From positions 1,880-28,697 of the IMG/VR virus record IMGVR_UViG_3300010233_000198: a stretch of DNA of 26,818 bases; one strand, 5' to 3'. Origin of the DNA: a virus. Shown in pieces: positions 7,534 through 26,818 of the stretch. The notes under the pieces were generated by a model, which was not told the DNA's origin, did not search any database, and saw only the letters and a program-made list of their open reading frames with translations. Numbering within the stretch: position 1 is the stretch's first letter; every line of letters starts with the position of its first letter. The position numbers were made by a program, and so were the translations under genes.

Positions 7534-8100
7534 ATGTCATATACCCCTAACGTACCTCAAGGCAACCAGCAGATCGCAGCGACTCAGATACCGATCCTAA
7601 ATAACTTCACGTACATCAACACTGCAATGCGGATAGATCATGCTTGGAACGGCAACGAGATCAGCGGCCAGGCAGACGGATCGCACCAGAAGATCTCACT
7701 ACCCAATCAAGCCACGGACATCTCATCGCTTGGCACGGGCATAGCTTCGGTTATGTATTCTATAGGCGGTAATATCTTCTCTTATAATGGCACAAAGCGT
7801 CCGGTATCTGGGGTTAGCGGAACTGGAACCGTATTTATCACAACTTCATTTACGACTGTTTTTGCTATTCCCGCTGATTGTTTTGGGCATGTTCTATTAT
7901 CTCAGCCTGGTAGTGGAAGCGCGACTGTATTTACTTTTTTCTCTTCATCTTCAGTGGTTTACATATCGTATCTTGCTTCTGCTGTTTTAACTGGTTTTAC
8001 CACACTTAATCTATTAAACAACTCATTAAACCTTCAAGTTAACAGAGCTAATGGAGCCAATTACACGTCAACATACAAATACATTTACTGGCCAATATAA
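7534..8100 (+). CDS. Phage virion protein, small tail-associated
   Basis: A 188-residue protein with TTAGGAGAAG before the ATG. Its first 65 residues follow a pattern frequent in phage tail regions: PNVPQGNQQIAATQIPILNN, then DHAWNG and ADGSHQKISLPNQ. The rest is Phe/Ser/Val-rich beta strand. From about base 7780 the DNA is clearly more AT-rich than the neighbours, so the C-terminal half may be a later acquisition. The protein is probably a small fibre or head-tail component. No enzyme motif was seen. The stop overlaps the next start (TAATG). Confidence 0.6.
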   Translation: MSYTPNVPQGNQQIAATQIPILNNFTYINTAMRIDHAWNGNEISGQADGSHQKISLPNQATDISSLGTGIASVMYSIGGNIFSYNGTKRPVSGVSGTGTVFITTSFTTVFAIPADCFGHVLLSQPGSGSATVFTFFSSSSVVYISYLASAVLTGFTTLNLLNNSLNLQVNRANGANYTSTYKYIYWPI

Positions 8101-10406
8101 TGGTAGACTATCAAAAGTTTCCTATACAAAACACGCGAACCGGATTTAATGAGTCAGTCGAATCTTGGCTGCTTCCTAGAGATTCGTACCAGCAAATGAT
8201 TAACTGCCATCTATACCGAGGTGTGCTGGAGAAGATTGCCGGATACCGTTTGTTTGCAAGATTCACGGATAGAGGACAAGCTTCCCTGGGAACACCAGAT
8301 GGAGTGAAGAAAACTTTTACAGGAACGCTTCTCGTTTTGCCTGTGGTTGCCAATCTAAAAGAATCTTCTCCTTTTGTATACGGAACAATAAGCGTCGCAG
8401 CCGGAACAGCAGAAACATTCGCGTACACTTCAGACTTTTCGGCTACAGAAATAACTCTAACCGGTAGTGCTGGTGGAACTGGTCGTATAAACATAACAAC
8501 AGGTGTATTCACAATCACTTTTAACACTGCACCACCTCTAAGTATTTACAGTTCAGTTTTCATTATTATTGACTTCACTCCGCTTTCTACAACAGCCATC
8601 ATGGGAATTAAGCAATATTATCAGGATACAGGTGGGCAAGAGGTTTTGGTATTCGACGAGAAGCGCGTAGGTAAGATCGTAAACAATGTAGGTATCCTGG
8701 CCGCGCAATCGGGAGCACTTCAAGCTGTAACAGAACTACCTCATGATTATTATATCGCACAGTTCTACACAACACCTGGAGGAGCGCAAACCTTTACTGG
8801 CGTACTTGCTGGAGCACCTTTCGTTCCTGGCACAATTGCAATTTCCGAGTTCACAGCAGCAGGTGTTCCCGTACCAGGTAATACGATAACCGATAATGGA
8901 CAAGGCAAACTTCAGGGAGCTAATGTCACTTCAGGAAGCATTAACTACATCACCGGAGCAGTTACCTTCACTCTATCCGCTTCAACAGCCACAAACGTCT
9001 ACGATTTCACTGGCGGGTTTTACGATGACCTATTCACTGGTGGTATCTCTAACTTCTTTAGCCTAACAAACTACCAGTATAACGCATTCTTTACTAACAA
9101 TATAGACCCACCATTTTACTATGACGGAATAAGTGTTCATTACCTAAATACTAATGTTTCGGTAAAGCTCACAACAGCATCAGGTGGCGTTCCAGTTTAT
9201 GACATTACCAGAGTACTCCATGTTTTTACCTATCGCGAACGTCTCCTACTGATGAATGTGCTGATGAACGGAGTCGGCGCGCCTAACGATATTTGGTGGT
9301 CTACAGCTGGCGCACCTTTAGACTTTACCAATGACGAGAACTTGCCCGCTCCTACCAGTGAGGCGATCAGGCTTTTCGGCTACATCAATACTGACCTGAT
9401 CGTGCGCTTTGCTAATTCAGAGCGCGTATTTCGGTATACTGCTGACGCATTCTCACCCTTTAGATGGGACAGCACAAACAATATATGGGCCTGTGACACT
9501 CAGTACAGCGCAATTAACTACGATTCCTGGTTCAGTTCTATAGGCAAGCCCGCGATTGTTGGGTCTGATGGAGTGAACGTGAAGAGGGTCGACGAGATCA
9601 TACCGGATTTCACAGACCCGACAAGACTTGCGCAGCAGACTCCAGTACCGTTCATGAGCCAGACAAGCATAGGGCAATGTTATGGGGAAAGATTCGACGA
9701 CGAGAAGGAAGGCTGGCTCTGCTACAACAGCTCACCGCAAGACCAGTCCGAGGTAACCGCATCCGATAATGTGCTGGCCTTTAACTATTTAGATCAGACC
9801 TACGCGGTTTATCAGTTTCCGTTTAGTTGTCTCGGCTTTGGCAAGATAGTGAACGTTCCTACTTGGTCCACCACATTTACGACCTGGCAAGACATGGACG
9901 TGACCTGGGATAGCTATCTACAGCAGAGCAATGCGCTTGTCGACTTAGCCGGTGATCAGTTCGATACTGTCTTCGAGCTTAACACGGGCAATTCGCTAGG
10001 CGATGAGACAACCCCAGTGCTTATGAGCGTTATAACGAAGAACTTCAACCCATTTATCGAGGAAGGGGAACTGTGCCGCTTCGGTTATGTTGATCTGTTC
10101 GTCTCTGCCTACAATACCACTACTTTGCGGGTCCAGTTCTACCTTAACGATGAGCTGTACGTGGATGGTTCAGGAAACCCAGCCGGATACTATCAGGAAA
10201 CGATATTGAACTTTGCCACTATGGATTCCATGAGCTCTGCAAATCAAACCAAAGTCTGGAAGCGCATTTATGTTGGCGCTACAGGTAAATCGCACACCAT
10301 TCGACTGTACCAGAACGCTGCGGACTTCGGTACTAGCTTAGACCAACCAGTTTACGTGCATGCTATGGTGCTATACATGAAACCAGCAGGGAGGATTTTT
10401 AACTAA
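8100..10406 (+). CDS. Large tail or packaged-DNA stabilisation protein (P22 gp10-like)
   Basis: A 768-residue protein. The N-terminal pattern FNESVESWLLPRDSYQQM followed by NCHLYRGVLEKIAGY resembles podovirus head-completion or stabilisation proteins, which close the portal channel after packaging. Residues 64-162 and 225-310 carry two copies of a beta module also found in the connector (GTPDGVKKTF and TPGGAQTFTG starts, strands ending in NITTGVF or NYITGAV). Residues 320-560 include Trp/Tyr/Asp-rich beta repeats as in propeller-like tail hubs, and the last 120 residues form a beta domain. The exact place in the tail is inferred. Confidence 0.6.
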   Translation: MVDYQKFPIQNTRTGFNESVESWLLPRDSYQQMINCHLYRGVLEKIAGYRLFARFTDRGQASLGTPDGVKKTFTGTLLVLPVVANLKESSPFVYGTISVAAGTAETFAYTSDFSATEITLTGSAGGTGRINITTGVFTITFNTAPPLSIYSSVFIIIDFTPLSTTAIMGIKQYYQDTGGQEVLVFDEKRVGKIVNNVGILAAQSGALQAVTELPHDYYIAQFYTTPGGAQTFTGVLAGAPFVPGTIAISEFTAAGVPVPGNTITDNGQGKLQGANVTSGSINYITGAVTFTLSASTATNVYDFTGGFYDDLFTGGISNFFSLTNYQYNAFFTNNIDPPFYYDGISVHYLNTNVSVKLTTASGGVPVYDITRVLHVFTYRERLLLMNVLMNGVGAPNDIWWSTAGAPLDFTNDENLPAPTSEAIRLFGYINTDLIVRFANSERVFRYTADAFSPFRWDSTNNIWACDTQYSAINYDSWFSSIGKPAIVGSDGVNVKRVDEIIPDFTDPTRLAQQTPVPFMSQTSIGQCYGERFDDEKEGWLCYNSSPQDQSEVTASDNVLAFNYLDQTYAVYQFPFSCLGFGKIVNVPTWSTTFTTWQDMDVTWDSYLQQSNALVDLAGDQFDTVFELNTGNSLGDETTPVLMSVITKNFNPFIEEGELCRFGYVDLFVSAYNTTTLRVQFYLNDELYVDGSGNPAGYYQETILNFATMDSMSSANQTKVWKRIYVGATGKSHTIRLYQNAADFGTSLDQPVYVHAMVLYMKPAGRIFN

Positions 10407-11744: not shown

Positions 11745-13025
11745 ATGGTACAGATCATCGAAGCAGACAACTCCTGGGCAGATGCGGCACGCAAATTCGG
11801 GAGCGATCTTGTTCAGGGCTATGCTAACCGGTCAGATGAACAAGCTATCCAGAAAAGCATCATGGCACTCGGCGACAAACCAACAGCCAGGCAAATACTA
11901 GACGCGCTAACCAATACGAAGACGCACTCACCGAAAGCTAAACAGCAAGCACTCCAAAACTACATGGGCGTCGCGGAGTTCGAAGAAGCGCAAGCGAAGA
12001 ACAAAGAAGCGCAAAAGGTCGCCGAAGCCCGTGCAACTATAGAAGAAAACAAAGCAGCTAACACGAAGGCATACCAGGAAGGTCGACTGGCCACTGAAGG
12101 AACAAAAGCACAAGGAGCCACGGATCGTGCAACTACAGCAGCCGAGCACAAAAACAAACAGCTCGAGGAACAAACCAGGCACAATAAAGCAGTCGAGGGA
12201 AACGCATCAACTGCCCAGGGAACACAACAGCAGCGCGTGGACATTGAAGCTAAAAGAGAAGAAGAAAAAGCGCAAGCCAAGTTAGACGAGCAAGAGCAGT
12301 CCGATGCCATTATAGACCAGATCTCAGATAAGTTTATGACTCCCGAGATGAAAGCTGGTCTGAAAGGTAGCCTCTCTAAAGATCAAGCCGAGACACTGTT
12401 GCGCGATTCGTTAGAACCTCCCAAGGCTACTTTAGAAGATAAGGAATTCGCCAAGAGACGTGTTAAGGAAACAGGCGCGCTGACCTCAAACATTATAGAA
12501 AACCGCAAAGTAAGGGAAGAAGTCGGCAAGCTCCGTAAATTATCCGACACGCTAAGTACTCCATCCGCAAAATTAACTGGCTGGACAGGTTTAAACAAAA
12601 CAGCAAACGACATCTCTATCCGCTCGTTCCCGTTAATCAAAACCGTCCTTGAACTGATCGCAGGCAAAGGAACCATCGCACTTGGCAAGATCAAAATAGC
12701 TGAAGAGAAACACGCTATAAGACCTACAGACTCAGTGACATTGCGCAATTCAAAATTGGATGCACTGGATAGCTTAGCCCAGATAGCAATCGAAAGAGAC
12801 CAGCAAAAGCTCGATCTTCTTAAATTAGGTTCCAATCAAGAAATCCTAGATAAATTTCAGGCTGAATCCGACTCAATCTTAGACGCCTATATGGACATGG
12901 ATCTGGTAGGTGAAGAAGTAAACAGCGATGAGTTGCCGCCTGCCTTAGAGCTTAAAGGGCGAACAGGCACGTTATCGGATGGCACTAAAGTTAAAAGCGA
13001 TGGAGTCAGATGGACAAAAATCTAG
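11745..13025 (+). CDS. Coiled-coil ejection-type protein
   Basis: A 426-residue protein starting two bases after the preceding stop. Residues 80-200 are a long stretch of Ala/Lys/Glu/Gln without Pro breaks, consistent with an extended helix or coiled coil. The part from residue 200 is also helical, with a more hydrophobic segment around residues 280-310 (IRSFPLIKTVLELIAGKG). No enzyme motif was seen. It lies between the Gly-zipper protein and the 1125-residue protein and is likely a second ejection-set member. The next gene overlaps it by 16 bases. Confidence 0.6.
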   Translation: MVQIIEADNSWADAARKFGSDLVQGYANRSDEQAIQKSIMALGDKPTARQILDALTNTKTHSPKAKQQALQNYMGVAEFEEAQAKNKEAQKVAEARATIEENKAANTKAYQEGRLATEGTKAQGATDRATTAAEHKNKQLEEQTRHNKAVEGNASTAQGTQQQRVDIEAKREEEKAQAKLDEQEQSDAIIDQISDKFMTPEMKAGLKGSLSKDQAETLLRDSLEPPKATLEDKEFAKRRVKETGALTSNIIENRKVREEVGKLRKLSDTLSTPSAKLTGWTGLNKTANDISIRSFPLIKTVLELIAGKGTIALGKIKIAEEKHAIRPTDSVTLRNSKLDALDSLAQIAIERDQQKLDLLKLGSNQEILDKFQAESDSILDAYMDMDLVGEEVNSDELPPALELKGRTGTLSDGTKVKSDGVRWTKI

Positions 13026-16000
13026 GCACAATCAGTACCGGTCCTGTAACCATAAGGAAGCCTGGGTTTATTCTAGACGAAGAGCCCGAGGACAGCGCAC
13101 CTACTCAGTTACCACAGCCACGTGCACCTGTCAGAAAAGGTTTCGTGTTAGATGATCCGATTACCACAACTCCTGAGCAGCGAGACCAAGCCAAAATGGT
13201 GGAAGCTGCTGGTCAGTATCACGTGCCAGACAAAACACCGGAAGAGCTAAAGAGCATGTCGATTCGTGAACGCATGCAGTATATTCAAGACCTCCAGACT
13301 CAACGCGAATTCCTAAACAGTAGCCAATTCGTTAAGGGCACTCTATCCGGTGCGTCGTTTGGTGCCACTGAAAACATAGAAGCACTGAAACCGATTAAGT
13401 TTGAGGAAGCTAACATATTACAGATTCCCGAAGTGGCTGGTCAGCTTGTCGGATCTTATCTGCCTCTAAGTGGAATGATTAAAGTTTCGCATTTGGCAAC
13501 AAGTCCTGTAATGAAAATGATTACCAAAAGTCCTGTGATTCAAAAGAATGTCGGTGCTCTATTATCTATGTTCGGTGTCGGTATGGCGGATAGTGCTCTG
13601 CATCAAGTAGCGAAAGGCGAGATTCCTTCACCTATAGATGCTCTTCAGAATGGTGGAACCTGGGCTGCTCTCGATGTTGCCCTAAAGACTCTAGGTGTTG
13701 GTGGCCGATTCGCTGCTGGTATGATGAGACGCGCAAGTCAAACAGGTACCAATAGACTAGAAATGGTCAACAGAGTCGCTAATGAAGTCAAGGTATCAGG
13801 AGCAACCACACCAGAGCAGGTTGCAGCTAAAGCACTAGAAGTAATCGAAGGCCCTCTAAGTGAAGCCGAAAAACTAGCAGCACAGGAACGCACTGTACAG
13901 CTTGCCCAGCGCGAACAAACCGAAATGTCCAAACTTGCGCAGCAAACATTAGGACAACCCGTATCACAAGGTAAACAGGCAGTTACATCTAAATCACAAC
14001 CATCACAACCACCAGGCGGATTAGGAATTCAGTATGGTTTTGCAGATTTAGGTCAGGGCATATCAGACAGTTTTTACAAGCAAGGTTTCGAGTCTTTACA
14101 GAAAGGAAGAACATCTATTGCAGGTATGACAGACGATATTCTTGTCGCGGCTAAACCTAATTTCGATAACGGTTTAATTAAGTCTGCTGATGACCTCAAG
14201 AAATTCACAGACTTCTATTACTCACAAAAGTATCCATCACAAGGTACCGCAACGCCACAAGTCGCACAAGGAACCAAACAGTTTACAGTTAAGAAAGGCG
14301 CACCTGGTACACCTTCAGAGCAAACACAAGCAGTTTCCCGTGTACAAGCAGCAGCTCAAGCAGAACCAGGCCTCACACCTAAAGATATAAAGACCCGTGT
14401 AATCGAAGACCGCCCAGTGAACCAGCTAACCAAGAAAGTGCACGAGCTTTCCGAACCGTACAAGCCGCTAGCCGTGGACCTGGTTAAAGAAGCGGCAGCA
14501 CTCGAGAACACCGCAATTCAGGGTAAGATCAATCAGGTAGGCACCAGGGCAGCGTCAATGGAAGTACTTGGCACATCAATCCGGGAAAATGTGAACGAAG
14601 CACTAGAAGCAGCCAAAGCAGAATACGCGCCATTGTACGTAGAAGCAGAGCGAATAGCGCATACGGTTACCCATGTACCTACAAGAGCCATAAACACTGC
14701 GATTAATAGATTACTTAGACTAGCCTCTTTACGTACAAGACCTGCCGGATACAACGCAGTTATCGAAAACCTAGAAGGTGTACTGGAAGATCTTGGTGCT
14801 ACCGCAACGATTGCCGAGTCCTTAGGTGTCCAGGCTGCCGCAGGTGTTGAAATTCCCGTGTCGAGATCTATAGAAGTTGCCCGAAGACTAAATGAAATTG
14901 TGACCTATGAAGCTATTGAGCCTACCGTAAAAGATGTCCTGAAAAAAGAGGTACTGGATCTAAAAGCCGACATACGTACAGGTCTAGTGCAAGTTCCTGA
15001 TGCTCTGGCTGCCTTTGAACTAGCCGAAGCACAGCACGCAGTAGTGGCCCAGAGATTTGGTAGGGACAGCATTAAAAGTATCCGTGGTCAGCAAGCAGGT
15101 GAGCGCGTTGCCAAAATGGTTGAATCGCCCACCACATTCGCTGAGCTGAAACCGATATTGTCACCTGCGCAGACCCAGCAGATCGAGCGTGAGTTCCTGG
15201 AAAAGCTTAACGAACAGACATTCGACAAGTCTCAGAAGTCGCTTCGCGAGATGGAACGACACCTCTCTGCCGAAAACCGTAAACTGGCGCGTGAGATCGT
15301 AGAGTCCAAGAATCCGCACAATCCTCAAGTACGCCGAAAACTTAAACAAGAAGCTATCCTGGACGACTTAAGCCAATCCCTCAGTACTGGTGATCGCCCT
15401 AAGCTAGCCCTTAATCTATGGAAGACACCCGAAGGCCAAAAACTGGTTAACGAAGCGCTGCACAACAGCCCGAATAAAGCGCGCCTGACTAAATACCTTC
15501 AGGAGCAATCATTCGAAGACTTAAAGCGATCAGTATTCAAATCAGATGGAACACTTAATCTGGACAAATTCAAAGAGTTCATGCGTGATCCTGGAACCGT
15601 TAACAATATCCGTATGATGGGTGGTGAGGATGCCGTTAAGTTCTTCAGGAACCTAGGTAGCCAAGTCAAAGAGATGGGCACGAACCTAAAGATAATACAG
15701 CATTTTCCGACTGAAGAGCAGATCGATAGACAACTCAGTTACAGGAAAAAACCAGAGTTAGCTAGAGAGTCTCCTGGTCAGCGCAAACTCGAGCAGATCG
15801 TATCCAAAGAAAAGCAAACCGAACGGCAAATCACTGGTCTAGGCAAGGAAAAACTTGAACTGGGCCCCAAAGGCAAGTCAACCCGGGATGAACAGGCCCT
15901 AGCAGCTAAAGAGCAGCGCGGAGGAAAGCGACTAGAAGAACTGGCCGCAAAAGAGAATCGTACAGAGAGACAGATAGGCGAAATCGGAAAAGAGAAACTG

Positions 16001-16387
16001 CCCACAAAGAAAACAGACAAAGAAGTGCTCGAAGCTAAAGCACACCGTGGAGACGAGATACTTAAGCGCATGAAAAGAAAAGACTACCACGCTAAGCAGA
16101 AGTTAGAAGACTGGAATGAATGGATAAAGGACACACTGCACCTGAATACTAAATCGGCAATTTCAGTATTCGGGATAGCTAAACTGGGCGGCTCAGCTAC
16201 AAGCGCAATCACCACAGGCATACCAACTGTTCTAATCGGTCTAGTTGGCTACAGAATGATGAACAGATTGCTAACCAGTCCGCGTACAAGACGAGCTTTC
16301 CTGGATGCGTGTAAGAAGAAAAGCGATCCGATTAAGTTTGTGCTTGGCATGGAAGCTTTCGGAAATTCAATTAAAGAAGAAGATTAA
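13010..16387 (+). CDS. Large ejection-type internal virion protein (1125 aa)
   Basis: The longest gene in the window. Residues 1-70 are disordered and Pro-rich. Residues 140-235 hold amphipathic hydrophobic stretches (QLVGSYLPLSGMIKVSHLA and KNVGALLSMFGVGM). The middle is helical and charged. Residues 925-1014 contain a twofold internal repeat built on the pattern KE(K/N)xTERQIxxxGKEKL. Residues 1047-1088 form a hydrophobic putative membrane segment (TTGIPTVLIGLVGYRMM). Large ejection proteins of podoviruses enter the host envelope to guide DNA. That role is inferred. No lytic transglycosylase or peptidase motif was seen. Confidence 0.6.
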   Translation: MDKNLGTISTGPVTIRKPGFILDEEPEDSAPTQLPQPRAPVRKGFVLDDPITTTPEQRDQAKMVEAAGQYHVPDKTPEELKSMSIRERMQYIQDLQTQREFLNSSQFVKGTLSGASFGATENIEALKPIKFEEANILQIPEVAGQLVGSYLPLSGMIKVSHLATSPVMKMITKSPVIQKNVGALLSMFGVGMADSALHQVAKGEIPSPIDALQNGGTWAALDVALKTLGVGGRFAAGMMRRASQTGTNRLEMVNRVANEVKVSGATTPEQVAAKALEVIEGPLSEAEKLAAQERTVQLAQREQTEMSKLAQQTLGQPVSQGKQAVTSKSQPSQPPGGLGIQYGFADLGQGISDSFYKQGFESLQKGRTSIAGMTDDILVAAKPNFDNGLIKSADDLKKFTDFYYSQKYPSQGTATPQVAQGTKQFTVKKGAPGTPSEQTQAVSRVQAAAQAEPGLTPKDIKTRVIEDRPVNQLTKKVHELSEPYKPLAVDLVKEAAALENTAIQGKINQVGTRAASMEVLGTSIRENVNEALEAAKAEYAPLYVEAERIAHTVTHVPTRAINTAINRLLRLASLRTRPAGYNAVIENLEGVLEDLGATATIAESLGVQAAAGVEIPVSRSIEVARRLNEIVTYEAIEPTVKDVLKKEVLDLKADIRTGLVQVPDALAAFELAEAQHAVVAQRFGRDSIKSIRGQQAGERVAKMVESPTTFAELKPILSPAQTQQIEREFLEKLNEQTFDKSQKSLREMERHLSAENRKLAREIVESKNPHNPQVRRKLKQEAILDDLSQSLSTGDRPKLALNLWKTPEGQKLVNEALHNSPNKARLTKYLQEQSFEDLKRSVFKSDGTLNLDKFKEFMRDPGTVNNIRMMGGEDAVKFFRNLGSQVKEMGTNLKIIQHFPTEEQIDRQLSYRKKPELARESPGQRKLEQIVSKEKQTERQITGLGKEKLELGPKGKSTRDEQALAAKEQRGGKRLEELAAKENRTERQIGEIGKEKLPTKKTDKEVLEAKAHRGDEILKRMKRKDYHAKQKLEDWNEWIKDTLHLNTKSAISVFGIAKLGGSATSAITTGIPTVLIGLVGYRMMNRLLTSPRTRRAFLDACKKKSDPIKFVLGMEAFGNSIKEED

Positions 16388-22500: not shown

Positions 22501-22842
22501 ATGGGCAAGGAAACCGGTACTTCTGTGCATTTTGATCGGGAAAGCTTCGAGTTCGTTGGCCTAGATGAGTCTAAGCTGAAGCAACTTAAGTCTTCCTATT
22601 TCAATACTAATGTCGACGCTGAGCTAAAGAAGATGAAATTCTGGTTACAGTCTCCTAAGGGTAAATCCGTTAAGGGCACTATCAGCTTCATCGCTAACTG
22701 GCTATCTAAAGCGCTACCCTCTAAAACCGCACAGTGCGAAGTACCCGAATCCGACACTCCATTACAGCCATACCTTGACGAATACTTAAAGGACCTATGG
22801 AAGAATCGGGAACACATCATACATCTCAATCGTCGGAGCTAG
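22501..22842 (+). CDS. Replication protein, helicase-loader-like
   Basis: A 113-residue basic protein. The in-frame GTG at 22495 is an alternative start; neither has a clear ribosome site. The segment KKMKFWLQSPKGKSVKGT, then ISFIANWLSKAL resembles the C-terminal domain of phage and bacterial replication proteins (helicase loaders or replisome organisers). These carry a W-L-P-x-x-K-x-x-K-G followed by a helix ending in NWLSRA. A helicase gene follows and overlaps it by 46 bases. The loader role is inferred from the motif and neighbour. The N-terminal origin-binding domain of larger relatives is absent. Confidence 0.55.
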   Translation: MGKETGTSVHFDRESFEFVGLDESKLKQLKSSYFNTNVDAELKKMKFWLQSPKGKSVKGTISFIANWLSKALPSKTAQCEVPESDTPLQPYLDEYLKDLWKNREHIIHLNRRS

Positions 22843-23687
22843 AAGCATTCCTACAGTTCGGTACCGCTACGCACCCTACACCGGACTGTATAACTGCGCT
22901 GCATGACCTACCCCGGGAATATCGTGCCGAAATAAACAAAGGCTATTCTACCGGCTGGGCTTGCCTGGATCGCTACCTACAGGGTTTGCGGCCTGGGGAA
23001 CTGACCGTGATCACCGCAGACACCGGAGCCGGCAAGACCACGTTTTGTACTCAGATGATGGTGAACTGCGCAATGCAAGGGATACCAGTCTGGATAAACT
23101 CGTGGGAAATGAAACCAGAAACCACAATGCGTAAACTGGCCTCGATAATCCTGCGCCGGCCGATGAAAATGTGCAACTTTAATGACCACGAAAATGAGCA
23201 GTTCGATGAATGGGCTAGCCGGTACAAGGTTTACATCAATCCGAATACGATAGGCACCGACATTAACTCCCTGGCAAATCAATTGGTTACCGCAAAGAAG
23301 CTAGGCATACGAATCGTAATGTTGGATCACTTGGACTATCTGGTTAGCACAAAGAAAGACAAACTGCACGAGGCTATAGATGAAACCGTTAAGCGACTCC
23401 ATGAGCTTGCCTTTGCCCTTGAGATGCACCTACTGCTCATCTGCCATCCTCGACAAACATCCACAGGCTCCGAAGAGGTTGGACTGCATTCGCTTAAGGG
23501 GTCATCATCTATTAAACAATACGCAGATAACGTTATCGTACTACACAGATGCGCAAGGACGGACAATTCAGCAGATCCAAATAAAGTTAAAATAAGAATC
23601 GCCAAAAACCGTATGTTCGGCACAGAGGGTAACGCTTACCTTTTCTATGAACCTCTATGGGATGGCTACACGGAGCTCCACAAGTGA
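22797..23687 (+). CDS. DnaB/Twinkle-type replicative helicase
   Basis: A 296-residue protein with the core of SF4 helicases. The Walker A motif ITADTGAGKTTFC is at about residues 72-84. Walker B IVMLDHLDYLV is at 173-183, and a sensor-like LLLICHPRQ follows near 215. LKGSSSIKQYADNVIVLHR is the family's Q/R-containing H4-type motif, and IRIAKNRMFGTEGNAYL closes the domain. There is no primase and only a short N-terminal extension (about 45 residues). It would unwind the phage replication fork as a ring. AAAGGA precedes the ATG. Confidence 0.87.
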   Translation: MEESGTHHTSQSSELEAFLQFGTATHPTPDCITALHDLPREYRAEINKGYSTGWACLDRYLQGLRPGELTVITADTGAGKTTFCTQMMVNCAMQGIPVWINSWEMKPETTMRKLASIILRRPMKMCNFNDHENEQFDEWASRYKVYINPNTIGTDINSLANQLVTAKKLGIRIVMLDHLDYLVSTKKDKLHEAIDETVKRLHELAFALEMHLLLICHPRQTSTGSEEVGLHSLKGSSSIKQYADNVIVLHRCARTDNSADPNKVKIRIAKNRMFGTEGNAYLFYEPLWDGYTELHK

Positions 23688-23908: not shown

Positions 23909-24162
23909 AAAAGCTAAAAGAAAGAGAAATGGACTACCTGGCTGAACAATTCGGCATACAGTGCGAGGAACCAAAAACGCCGGCCACTATACTTGACATC
24001 CGGGATAAAATCGGGCACATCAAGGATCTGGTCTGTATCTGCGGTGAGGCACTGATATACTCATCACTTAACGATATAAAGCGCTTAGTGGTCGACACCC
24101 TTTATTTTCAAGTGCAATCCCAACTTAACCATGTATCCGAGGAACTAGCATGCCACAGGTAG
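23905..24162 (+). CDS. Small helical protein of unknown function in the replication operon
   Basis: An 85-residue protein starting in an ATGA overlap. AAGGAAG lies a few bases before the ATG at 23905, which decides it against the earlier in-frame ATG at 23857. It is a mostly helical protein with acidic N-terminal residues, a CICGEALIY stretch near residue 45 and a Leu/Ile-rich helix to the end. No family was recognised. It overlaps the next gene by 13 bases. Confidence 0.6.
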   Translation: MKKLKEREMDYLAEQFGIQCEEPKTPATILDIRDKIGHIKDLVCICGEALIYSSLNDIKRLVVDTLYFQVQSQLNHVSEELACHR

Positions 24163-24524
24163 AAATAGGTCAATACCGCGAGGTCAACAAAGGCGCGTGG
24201 AAGGCCACATTTACGTTGCTTATACATCCCGAGGGACTTTCTGTTATAGATTGCCGGTATTTCGTTGCCGGGGATCGCCGCTGGTTCAGTTTCCCGCAAA
24301 AGCAAAAGTACAACAAGGATGCCGCAGCTAAACCGGAGTACTTTCCTTTTGTTCGCTTTTTAAATAAGGAATACGAGAAAAACCTGCAAATTTCAGTTCT
24401 CCAGGCCCTAAAATCAGTTTCACCCGAGGCACCCAATGTCAAAGCGCAAAATTACCAAGTTAACCAGCAAACGTATCCGGTACAAGATGACGCATCCTTT
24501 GGTCTCGGAGACTTGCCCTTTTGA
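24150..24524 (+). CDS. SpoVG-like protein with SSB-type acidic tip
   Basis: A 124-residue protein. The core (GLSVIDCRYFVAGDRRWFSF, then PQKQKYNKDA and YFPFVRFLN, ending with a helix) follows the small SpoVG-like phage fold, in which a strand pair with WFSFP leads to a C-terminal helix. The last residues DDASFGLGDLPF end with the acidic and Pro-Phe tip typical of single-strand-binding proteins, which use it to dock partner enzymes. It is the only candidate SSB in the window. Function inferred from the tip and from its position beside the helicase. Confidence 0.55.
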   Translation: MPQVEIGQYREVNKGAWKATFTLLIHPEGLSVIDCRYFVAGDRRWFSFPQKQKYNKDAAAKPEYFPFVRFLNKEYEKNLQISVLQALKSVSPEAPNVKAQNYQVNQQTYPVQDDASFGLGDLPF

Positions 24525-24666
24525 TTCTTGGATGGTTTTGTGTGAATTTGTGATGGATGTAGCCGAAAAAGAAGCTATGAAAAGACTATCCGAAACGCTA
24601 GATAACCTAATTTCAGATATTGCCGACGAGATCATAGAAACCGCCGAAGAAATAGAGGAGCCATAA
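24436..24666 (+). CDS. Small acidic helical protein of unknown function
   Basis: A 76-residue protein overlapping the previous gene by 89 bases. GAGG is eight bases before the ATG at 24436. Later in-frame ATGs (24487, 24532) lack better sites, so the start is provisional. Residues 1-20 are basic. The C-terminal 40 residues (EAMKRLSETLDNLISDIADE and onwards) are a long acidic helix, probably coiled coil. The stop overlaps the next start in TAATG. No family was recognised. Confidence 0.5.
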   Translation: MSKRKITKLTSKRIRYKMTHPLVSETCPFDSWMVLCEFVMDVAEKEAMKRLSETLDNLISDIADEIIETAEEIEEP

Positions 24667-25406
24667 TGGGACTCAAGTCAATCATAAAGCGGCAGAAGAT
24701 ACTAAACGCCCATGCTAATGACGAGATGACGTTGCCCGGAGAGCCTCTTATCTATTCTATTAAGTTTCAGGTCGGGCGCCGTGCTATGCCATTGAACTTT
24801 TTTCGCGATCTAAAGTGGCGTTCAATGCTCAAGTGCCAGTTTCCATTTTACTATAAGTCGCACACGCCTGTTGTGGTACTGGTTAAGTTTTTCGTCTCGC
24901 CGCCTTCTTATATCGATGTATCCGCAAAACAACTCAAATCCGAAAAGGTTCCCGCGGTGCATTCCTTTGAAGTGGCCGATTATGGTTTATCTTTCCTAGA
25001 AATGCTCCAAAAAGTGCTATTCAACTGCTATCGCCAAGTGGTTAAAATCGATATTGAGAAGTTCTATAGTGCTAATCCCCGAACAGTTTTTAAATACATG
25101 AACTGGACTACATATGTCAACCTGCAAAGTAAGCATTCCCGTGACGCCAAAGCCCAAACAATCGATACGCCTCGGAAACGGGCATGCGTACAACCCGAGT
25201 GCCAGAGGAATGGAAGTAACCCGGAAACTAGTCAAGAAAGCGCTAGGGCCACTGAAGTACCCCCTGTTTTCGGGTCCACTCTCAGTAATCGTGAAGTTCT
25301 TCCTACCAGCCCCGCACAGCCTAAAGGAATACAAACGCCAGGCTATGGACAGATACCCGCACATAAAAAGGCCAGACGGGGACAATCTCGAAAAGTACCT
25401 GAATGA
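24666..25406 (+). CDS. RusA-like protein without catalytic acids, with unusual long tail
   Basis: A 246-residue ORF in a TAATG junction. Residues 66-145 align by eye with the RusA resolvase encoded next: PVVVLVKFFVSPPSY corresponds to PLSVIVKFFLPAPHS, and VLFNCYRQVVKI to VLWTDDARIFAI. The catalytic Asp positions of RusA fall on Glu102, Ala104, Cys121 and Tyr122 here, so it is probably inactive. From residue 150 the frame lies inside the RusA gene (293 bases) and gives a polar, basic, low-complexity tail. This may be out-of-frame readthrough after a lost stop. It could be a dimer partner or a decayed paralog. Confidence 0.5.
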   Translation: MGLKSIIKRQKILNAHANDEMTLPGEPLIYSIKFQVGRRAMPLNFFRDLKWRSMLKCQFPFYYKSHTPVVVLVKFFVSPPSYIDVSAKQLKSEKVPAVHSFEVADYGLSFLEMLQKVLFNCYRQVVKIDIEKFYSANPRTVFKYMNWTTYVNLQSKHSRDAKAQTIDTPRKRACVQPECQRNGSNPETSQESARATEVPPVFGSTLSNREVLPTSPAQPKGIQTPGYGQIPAHKKARRGQSRKVPE

Positions 25407-25605
25407 CGCGCTTACCGGAGTGCTATGGACAGATGACGCCAGAATATTCGCTATAACTCGCCTGAAAGAGTACACCTCAGATAAAAATGGCCGCACTGAA
25501 ATATTTGTCCGGGAACATTGTCATGGCGAAATAGACTACCAGCGCATACTAGACGATATCATTGAAAACCTAAAGAGTGAACCAAAATGCCCATTACAGA
25601 CATAA
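25114..25605 (+). CDS. RusA-family Holliday junction resolvase
   Basis: A 163-residue protein of RusA type. The beginning (VSIPVTPKPKQSIRLGNG) and the core LSVIVKFFLPAPHS fit the family. The catalytic acids are present: RPDGDNLEKYLNDAL holds Asp88 and Asp90, and LWTDDARI holds Asp107/108, like Asp70, Asp72 and Asp91 of E. coli RusA. It cleaves four-way DNA junctions symmetrically as a dimer, resolving replication or recombination intermediates before packaging. The ATG has a poor ribosome site and depends on coupling to the upstream gene. A weak start position is possible. Confidence 0.85.
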   Translation: MSTCKVSIPVTPKPKQSIRLGNGHAYNPSARGMEVTRKLVKKALGPLKYPLFSGPLSVIVKFFLPAPHSLKEYKRQAMDRYPHIKRPDGDNLEKYLNDALTGVLWTDDARIFAITRLKEYTSDKNGRTEIFVREHCHGEIDYQRILDDIIENLKSEPKCPLQT

Positions 25606-26395: not shown

Positions 26396-26506
26396 TTACC
26401 TCTTTTTTTTCCAGAATTGCCATTTTAGCGACCAAATATAATCAGCAATAGCGCATGCCGTCAAATACAGGACTGCGCCAAGCATAAGTTGATCTAGTAT
26501 ATCCAT
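26396..26506 (-). CDS. 36-aa membrane micro-protein
   Basis: A 36-residue ORF with AGGAAAG seven bases before ATG. It starts on the last base of the recombinase stop codon (TAATG) and stops two bases before the next gene starts. The sequence (MDILDQLMLGAVLYLTACAI, then ADYIWSLKWQF and a Lys/Arg tail) shows one hydrophobic segment of about 18 residues with a basic C-terminus, typical of a small single-pass membrane protein. No family was recognised. Confidence 0.6.
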   Translation of the reverse strand: MDILDQLMLGAVLYLTACAIADYIWSLKWQFWKKKR

Positions 26507-26818
26507 TATTCTTTCCTGGGGTGAAATTGTCTAAACATCTCTTGCATCTTGTTACTACTCAAATGCGTATATCTTTGCGTGCTAGCTATCGAGCTATGCC
26601 CTAGCACTTCTTGTATTAACCTCAAATCTGCCCCGGCATCCAATAGGTGTGTAGCGCATGCGTGCCTAAGTGTATGTGTGGTAACCTGGTAAACGCCAAC
26701 TTTTCGAGCATACTGGCCCACTAGCTTGCATAGAAGTTGCCTATTGAGCGCTTTGCCCGTTAACGTTTGAAAGAGTATCCCGGGATCATTTCCACGGAAT
26801 TCGGCTACGTACACCTCG
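26506..26818 (-). CDS. Tyrosine recombinase, Xer-like, C-terminal part (truncated at window edge)
   Basis: The frame is open to the window end, so only the C-terminal part of the gene, about 103 residues, is present. It contains the catalytic Box II of tyrosine recombinases: HTLRHACATHLL, LIQEVLGHSS and TQRYTHLS, supplying His, Arg, His and the nucleophilic Tyr. The spacing and the end MQEMFRQFHPRK are very like XerC/XerD. The first Arg of the active site lies outside the window. It would catalyse site-specific integration and excision, perhaps at a Xer-type site. The gene heads a small membrane-protein operon. Confidence 0.88.
   Translation of the reverse strand, partial: EVYVAEFRGNDPGILFQTLTGKALNRQLLCKLVGQYARKVGVYQVTTHTLRHACATHLLDAGADLRLIQEVLGHSSIASTQRYTHLSSNKMQEMFRQFHPRKE

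Follow-up and report, generated by a model that had tools for sequence, protein, structure and literature searches.

Sequence comparisons and structural models identify a gene in the replication and recombination region of a virus, here called gene A, as a probable pseudo-enzyme gene: its product, a protein of predicted RusA fold, has stayed under selection although it has lost the catalytic lysine and the acids that bind metal. Gene A is directly followed by the gene for an intact RusA-like resolvase, with which it overlaps. We consider it likely, with a probability of about 0.55, that A acts as a non-catalytic partner of RusA, either within a heterodimer or as a regulatory subunit, and that it carries a disordered tail overprinted on the rusA gene.

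The window, by which we mean the whole stretch of DNA analyzed (26,818 nucleotides), was taken from an IMG/VR virus record of 28.7 kb. The loci of its relatives are from uncultured IMG/VR contigs. The features needed for the following sections are these:

24666-25406, + strand: gene A, whole open reading frame, 246 amino acids
24666..25115, + strand: predicted RusA-fold domain of gene A, residues 1 to ~150 (phrog_140, residue mapping, model, dN/dS)
25116..25406, + strand: C-terminal tail of gene A, ~96 residues after Y150 (stop avoidance, shuffles, aromatic depletion)
25114..25605, + strand: rusA, intact RusA-like resolvase, 163 amino acids (PF05866 6.1e-19, catalytic residues)
24436..24666, + strand: small conserved gene, 76 amino acids, directly 5' of A (gene order)
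24150..24524, + strand: possible SSB-like protein, 124 amino acids, same operon (acidic tip ending DLPF)
22797..23687, + strand: DnaB-like helicase, upstream in the same cluster (PF03796 1.2e-26; phrog_239 2e-53)

Gene neighborhood and RusA homology of gene A

Nearby genes of the window matched ERF (1.1e-14) and a PD-(D/E)XK nuclease (7.7e-7) in Pfam. Together with the DnaB-type helicase, they identify a phage recombination and replication cluster, which A and RusA close as a conserved two-gene unit. The position of the 76-residue gene upstream of A was kept in the relatives inspected. The product of 24150-24524 found no Pfam or PHROG match in profile searches; its acidic DLPF tip presumably resembles the tip of single-strand-binding proteins, and the protein might be an unrecognized phage SSB. 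In locus L001, this tip reads SDMPF. The same gene shares 89 nt with the 76-residue gene in different frames, a second nested overlap of the operon, and comparable overlaps occur in L004-L006.

At the window edge lies a truncated tyrosine recombinase (26506-26817, - strand), XerC/XerD-like by eye and full-length in L001 (4902-5795), whose presence suggests a temperate phage or a dimer-resolution function. The 1125-residue product of 13010-16387 gave no match in a Pfam search, and the large late-region proteins of 8100-10406 and 11745-13025 had little or no PHROG match, indicating that the libraries cover this phage group poorly.

Both reading frames of the pair lie where an initial annotation, whose alignment was made by eye, had placed them. 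A single-sequence Pfam scan of gene A gave no match. The profile search proposed in that annotation did connect A with RusA: phrog_140, the RusA family, matched window gene A directly (8.5e-5) and was matched by 17/18 diverged members of the A family (best 8.7e-9). PF05866 was weakly matched by 12/18 members (best 0.0028), the window member not being among them. When an A-family profile was run against 16,503 open reading frames, a set drawn from RusA-rich loci in which the majority of the frames are non-RusA, every match outside the family at E < 0.5 was a RusA, the top ones being from Bacillus (1.4e-7) and a Heimdallarchaeota (5.7e-7). Annotated phages gave weak matches to A, among which the top annotated ones were RusA resolvases, and the A profile found no match among the sequences of solved structures. 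The better matches to both profiles include RusAs of the archaeal MAG contigs L111, L112, L115, L117, and L130, binned as Heimdallarchaeota, Kariarchaeota, or unnamed archaea and possibly proviral.

The fold of A was modeled with AlphaFold2. With an alignment of the A family only, which is free of assumed homology, the model reached a pLDDT of 67.7. Its best PDB match was RusA (Z 5.9), with unrelated folds close behind at 5.6, and against a viral library it gave 28 matches at E < 0.001, of which the named ones were nearly all RusA. With live RusAs added to the alignment, the pLDDT was 79.7, and this deeper model, which is partly circular because its alignment includes live RusAs, matched E. 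coli RusA with a Z of 9.4 and an rmsd of 2.8 over 102 residues; the next unrelated fold scored 5.9. The profile matches and models indicate that residues 1 to ~150 of gene A are a RusA homologue with a predicted RusA fold. The description of the 246-residue protein as RusA-like thus holds for this part, whereas the last 97 residues are rusA read out of frame. The earlier suggestion to predict the structure of A alone likewise returned a RusA fold and not a different one.

The downstream gene had been called an intact RusA, an identification that PF05866 (69.3 bits, cut-off 22.8) and phrog_140 (1.4e-24) corroborate. Asp-88, Asp-90, and Asp-107/108 had been proposed as its acids, in agreement with the invariance of D88, D90, K94, D107, and D108 in 19/19 partner RusAs. 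In addition, the window RusA bears a lineage-specific C-terminal extension of ~26 residues, which in the partner RusAs is helix-like and conserved ([DN]YxxLLxxIxEHIxIE) and which is missing in most unpaired RusAs. The median number of residues after the DN motif is 74 in partner RusAs, compared with 48 in unpaired ones. Such an extension is as expected if the partner RusA had gained a docking element.

Catalytic positions, pairing, and ancestry of gene A

To map the catalytic residues, ~30 live RusAs were aligned to the A profile with HMMER. In the aligned live RusAs, D70 fell on E102 (28/28), D72 on A104 (28), the conserved lysine K76 on L108 (28), and D90 and D91 on C121 and Y122, respectively (31/32 each); N73 fell near-invariably on D105. 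The by-eye assignment of the acids to Glu-102, Ala-104, Cys-121, and Tyr-122 was therefore reproduced, and the loss of the lysine adds to it. Across 23 non-redundant viral loci, the corresponding positions of A are E102 (23), A/C/T/L104, D/E105, L108 (23), C/S/A/T121, and Y/H122, and glutamate is all that the family keeps among the catalytic positions. The survey of relatives advised in the initial annotation revealed no A that restores the acids at these positions, and D70, D72, D91, and K76 (E. coli numbering), by which an active RusA is recognized, are replaced in 23/23.

Outside these substitutions, A has a signature that is invariant in 23/23 loci, consisting of E102, Y106, L108, E112, Q124, K132, Y134, S135, P138, and R139. 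K132, Y134, S135, P138, and R139 make up a hairpin motif, K-x-Y-S-x-x-P-R, that is common to phrog_140-type live RusAs, and its invariance in A indicates that selection still acts on regions beyond the active site. The invariant E102 at a catalytic position might allow residual metal binding by A.

Gene A was directly followed by rusA in 18/18 non-redundant loci of one survey and in 25/25 loci listed from the A-profile scan of the 16,503 open reading frames. The pair is also present on contig L024, where A is cut by the contig edge. No A-like protein without an adjacent RusA was found in the same scans, no A relative was found in the bacterial and archaeal genomes scanned, and RusA-containing genome loci did not yield an A. 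Identity to the window proteins was 43-59% for A and 38-55% for RusA (near-identical L017 left out), and the closest pair gave a dN/dS of 0.094 for A, with rusA at 0.060. A dN/dS of 0.09 and a conservation equal to that of RusA indicate that A is not decaying.

The initial annotation had presented A as a dead copy beside a live one. The catalytic loss and the pairing stand, but a simple tandem copy does not. Profile-profile comparison of A with its neighbor RusA gave no match (probability 1.8%), and in a tree of 106 proteins with a midpoint root only, A (23) and partner RusA (23) formed separate groups with support of 100/100 or 100/99, leaving a recent tandem duplication of the neighboring rusA unsupported. 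The stem of the A group in this tree amounts to 3.95 changes per site. The missing profile match, the separate and fully supported groups, and the long stem indicate that the A/RusA pair is old; the ancestor of A may have been a RusA other than its neighbor.

Selection keeps the frame of A open within rusA

The A and rusA genes of the window share 293 nt, which they read in different frames, a feature that was not pointed out with the earlier alignment of the two proteins and was found here. Residues 150-246 of A are encoded by the rusA sequence in a frame shifted by one, over the first 60% of that gene. Wherever the frame was measured, rusA was in the +1 frame relative to A. The overlap ranges from 71 to 308 nt across loci, and in all 23 loci the A frame is open past the rusA start by at least 68 nt. 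In several relatives (e.g. L031:3553-4501), the stop of A falls at or just before the RusA DxDN codons, and in the window it lies within the following RusA helix (NDAL); the overlaps tend to end near the catalytic motif.

In 16/23 loci, the A frame ran open through rusA for 200 nt or more, compared with 0/49 low-GC unpaired rusA genes. High-GC unpaired rusA genes often have the same frame open over at least 200 nt by chance (23/125); the GC of the window family is 0.37-0.51, a range in which no unpaired rusA was open to that extent. Upon synonymous shuffling of the rusA codons, the observed open run had p < 0.01 in 14 of the first 18 loci and p < 0.05 in 18/23 (78%) when all loci were included. 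The latter threshold was reached by 3% of 94 helicase-gene windows, 3% of 125 unpaired rusA genes, and 2% of the low-GC unpaired rusA genes (n = 49).

Codon usage gave the same picture. Over the first 270 nt of rusA there were 332 sites at which a T-ending codon would create a stop in the A frame, and such a codon was used at 20 of them; the corresponding use was 33-41% in gene A, the remainder of rusA, and the helicase gene, and 30% in the SSB-like gene. Counted over 24 loci, one of them a near-copy, the A frame had 0 stops per codon in the first 60 nt, ~0.02 at 60-240 nt, and ~0.1 beyond, where A has usually already ended; the third frame of rusA had 0.04-0.16 stops per codon nearly throughout. 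These statistics take the loci as independent, which is inexact but acceptable because, even between the two closest relatives, synonymous sites in the overlap have already diverged strongly (dS 1.06). Together, these data show statistically that the A frame within rusA is kept open by selection.

The avoidance was also seen at the level of the encoded residues. T-ending codons that would place Tyr, Trp, or Phe in the tail were used in 11-14% of cases and those that would place Ser or Cys in 27-31%, with controls at ~26-44%. The avoidance of both stops and aromatic residues suggests that translation of the second frame is very probable and that the product of this frame is kept aromatic-poor, in line with a disordered tail. 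In composition, the tail is polar and poor in aromatic residues, and it is probably disordered. Viral overlapping genes in general are Tyr-depleted (PMC6195259). The identity of the tail residues is not conserved in the closest pair, as would fit an accidental read-through; this explanation was rejected by the stop-avoidance tests with their several types of control. As a role for the tail, we would guess at a flexible contact with DNA or protein.

Proposed role of gene A and comparison with known systems

Judging from the strict pairing, the extension of the partner RusA, and the shared fold, A is most plausibly a non-catalytic subunit. The protein would take one place in the dimer or dock on live RusA, and in doing so would steer or limit which branched DNA RusA cuts. 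A dimer with a single working active site would presumably nick one strand, whereas the RusA homodimer would cut two. The hairpin of A (K132, Y134-S135, P138-R139) may still contact DNA or the partner, and the other frame of rusA would add up to ~100 residues as a polar, disordered tail. A dimer interface shared by A and RusA is an assumption of this scheme, as their divergence is too great for a profile match, and co-conserved neighbor genes such as A and rusA need not bind one another. More tentatively, the pair could form an obligate asymmetric RusA, in which a live/dead heterodimer nicks one strand of branched DNA, in place of the two cuts by which the homodimer resolves junctions, and the overprinting of the tail bars genetic separation of the two proteins.

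A different and rather doubtful possibility is that A alone binds junctions or branched DNA without cutting and makes no contact with RusA, the two being neighbors only since both serve recombination; A might, for example, protect or present recombination intermediates. Such a function would agree with the retained RusA fold, with the hairpin common to live RusAs, and with the location in a recombination and replication cluster, and the nuclease-dead RusA D70N has been crystallized with DNA (PDB 2h8c). It would leave unexplained, however, why A was seen only beside RusA and why the partner RusA has a lineage-specific extension. Less probable still is that A is an antagonist or dose control of RusA, which caps or titrates the enzyme or curbs its synthesis through translation of the overlap, the tail itself being functionless. 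The unconserved tail residues and a frame that crosses the rusA start and continues for at least 68 nt in 23/23 loci speak for this option, but the depletion of Tyr, Trp, and Phe far exceeds that of Ser and Cys, so that the protein product seems to matter, and the length of the overlap is variable.

We regard it as improbable that A has kept nuclease activity through a rebuilt active site, such as E102 combined with D105, E112, or E93. Although E102 and E112 are invariant and position 105 is D or E in 23/23 loci, E112 aligns to D98, a helix acid that is conserved in live RusA but is not among the catalytic three; D72, K76, D90, and D91 are absent from every member; and D70N by itself renders RusA nuclease-dead, serving as the nuclease-dead control (PMC4909299). 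Finally, despite the lost catalytic residues and the blank single-sequence Pfam scan, a decaying duplicate or pseudogene, or a chance likeness seen by eye, is ruled out by the dN/dS of 0.094, the conservation over 23 diverged loci, the family-level matches, and the fold.

In RusA as described so far, two identical active subunits form a homodimer, and no gene for an inactive partner is known to accompany it. The E. coli enzyme (rus, DLP12 prophage; PDB entries 1q8r, 2h8c, and 2h8e; PF05866; phrog_140) resembles A in predicted fold and is connected to it by sequence homology via phrog_140; it differs in that A is without D72, K76, D90, and D91 and has Glu in place of D70. The tail of A has its counterpart in overprinted viral genes with disordered products, which are likewise second-frame and Tyr-poor (PMC6195259). 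Unlike these, it is an extension of a folded protein, rather than an entire new gene, and is nested in the gene of that protein's active relative. Stop codons introduced into the A frame can leave the RusA protein unchanged, and this nested coding therefore offers a clean test of the function of the overprinted tail.

No precedent for an inactive or heterodimeric RusA was found in the literature searched, which covered subscription papers in part, and our data suggest that A and RusA make up a two-part resolvase undescribed in that literature. Among the structure-specific nucleases of eukaryotes, XPF-ERCC1 and MUS81-EME1 each pair an active with an inactive subunit of a common fold; this fold is of the ERCC4 type and unrelated to RusA, and the heterodimers are proved. 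They provide a working analogy only, as the heterodimer that is proved there is proposed here. If A is indeed a non-catalytic partner of RusA, it would be a phage parallel to nucleases of the XPF-ERCC1 type and, as far as the literature searched shows, the first partner of RusA fold that is a pseudo-enzyme.
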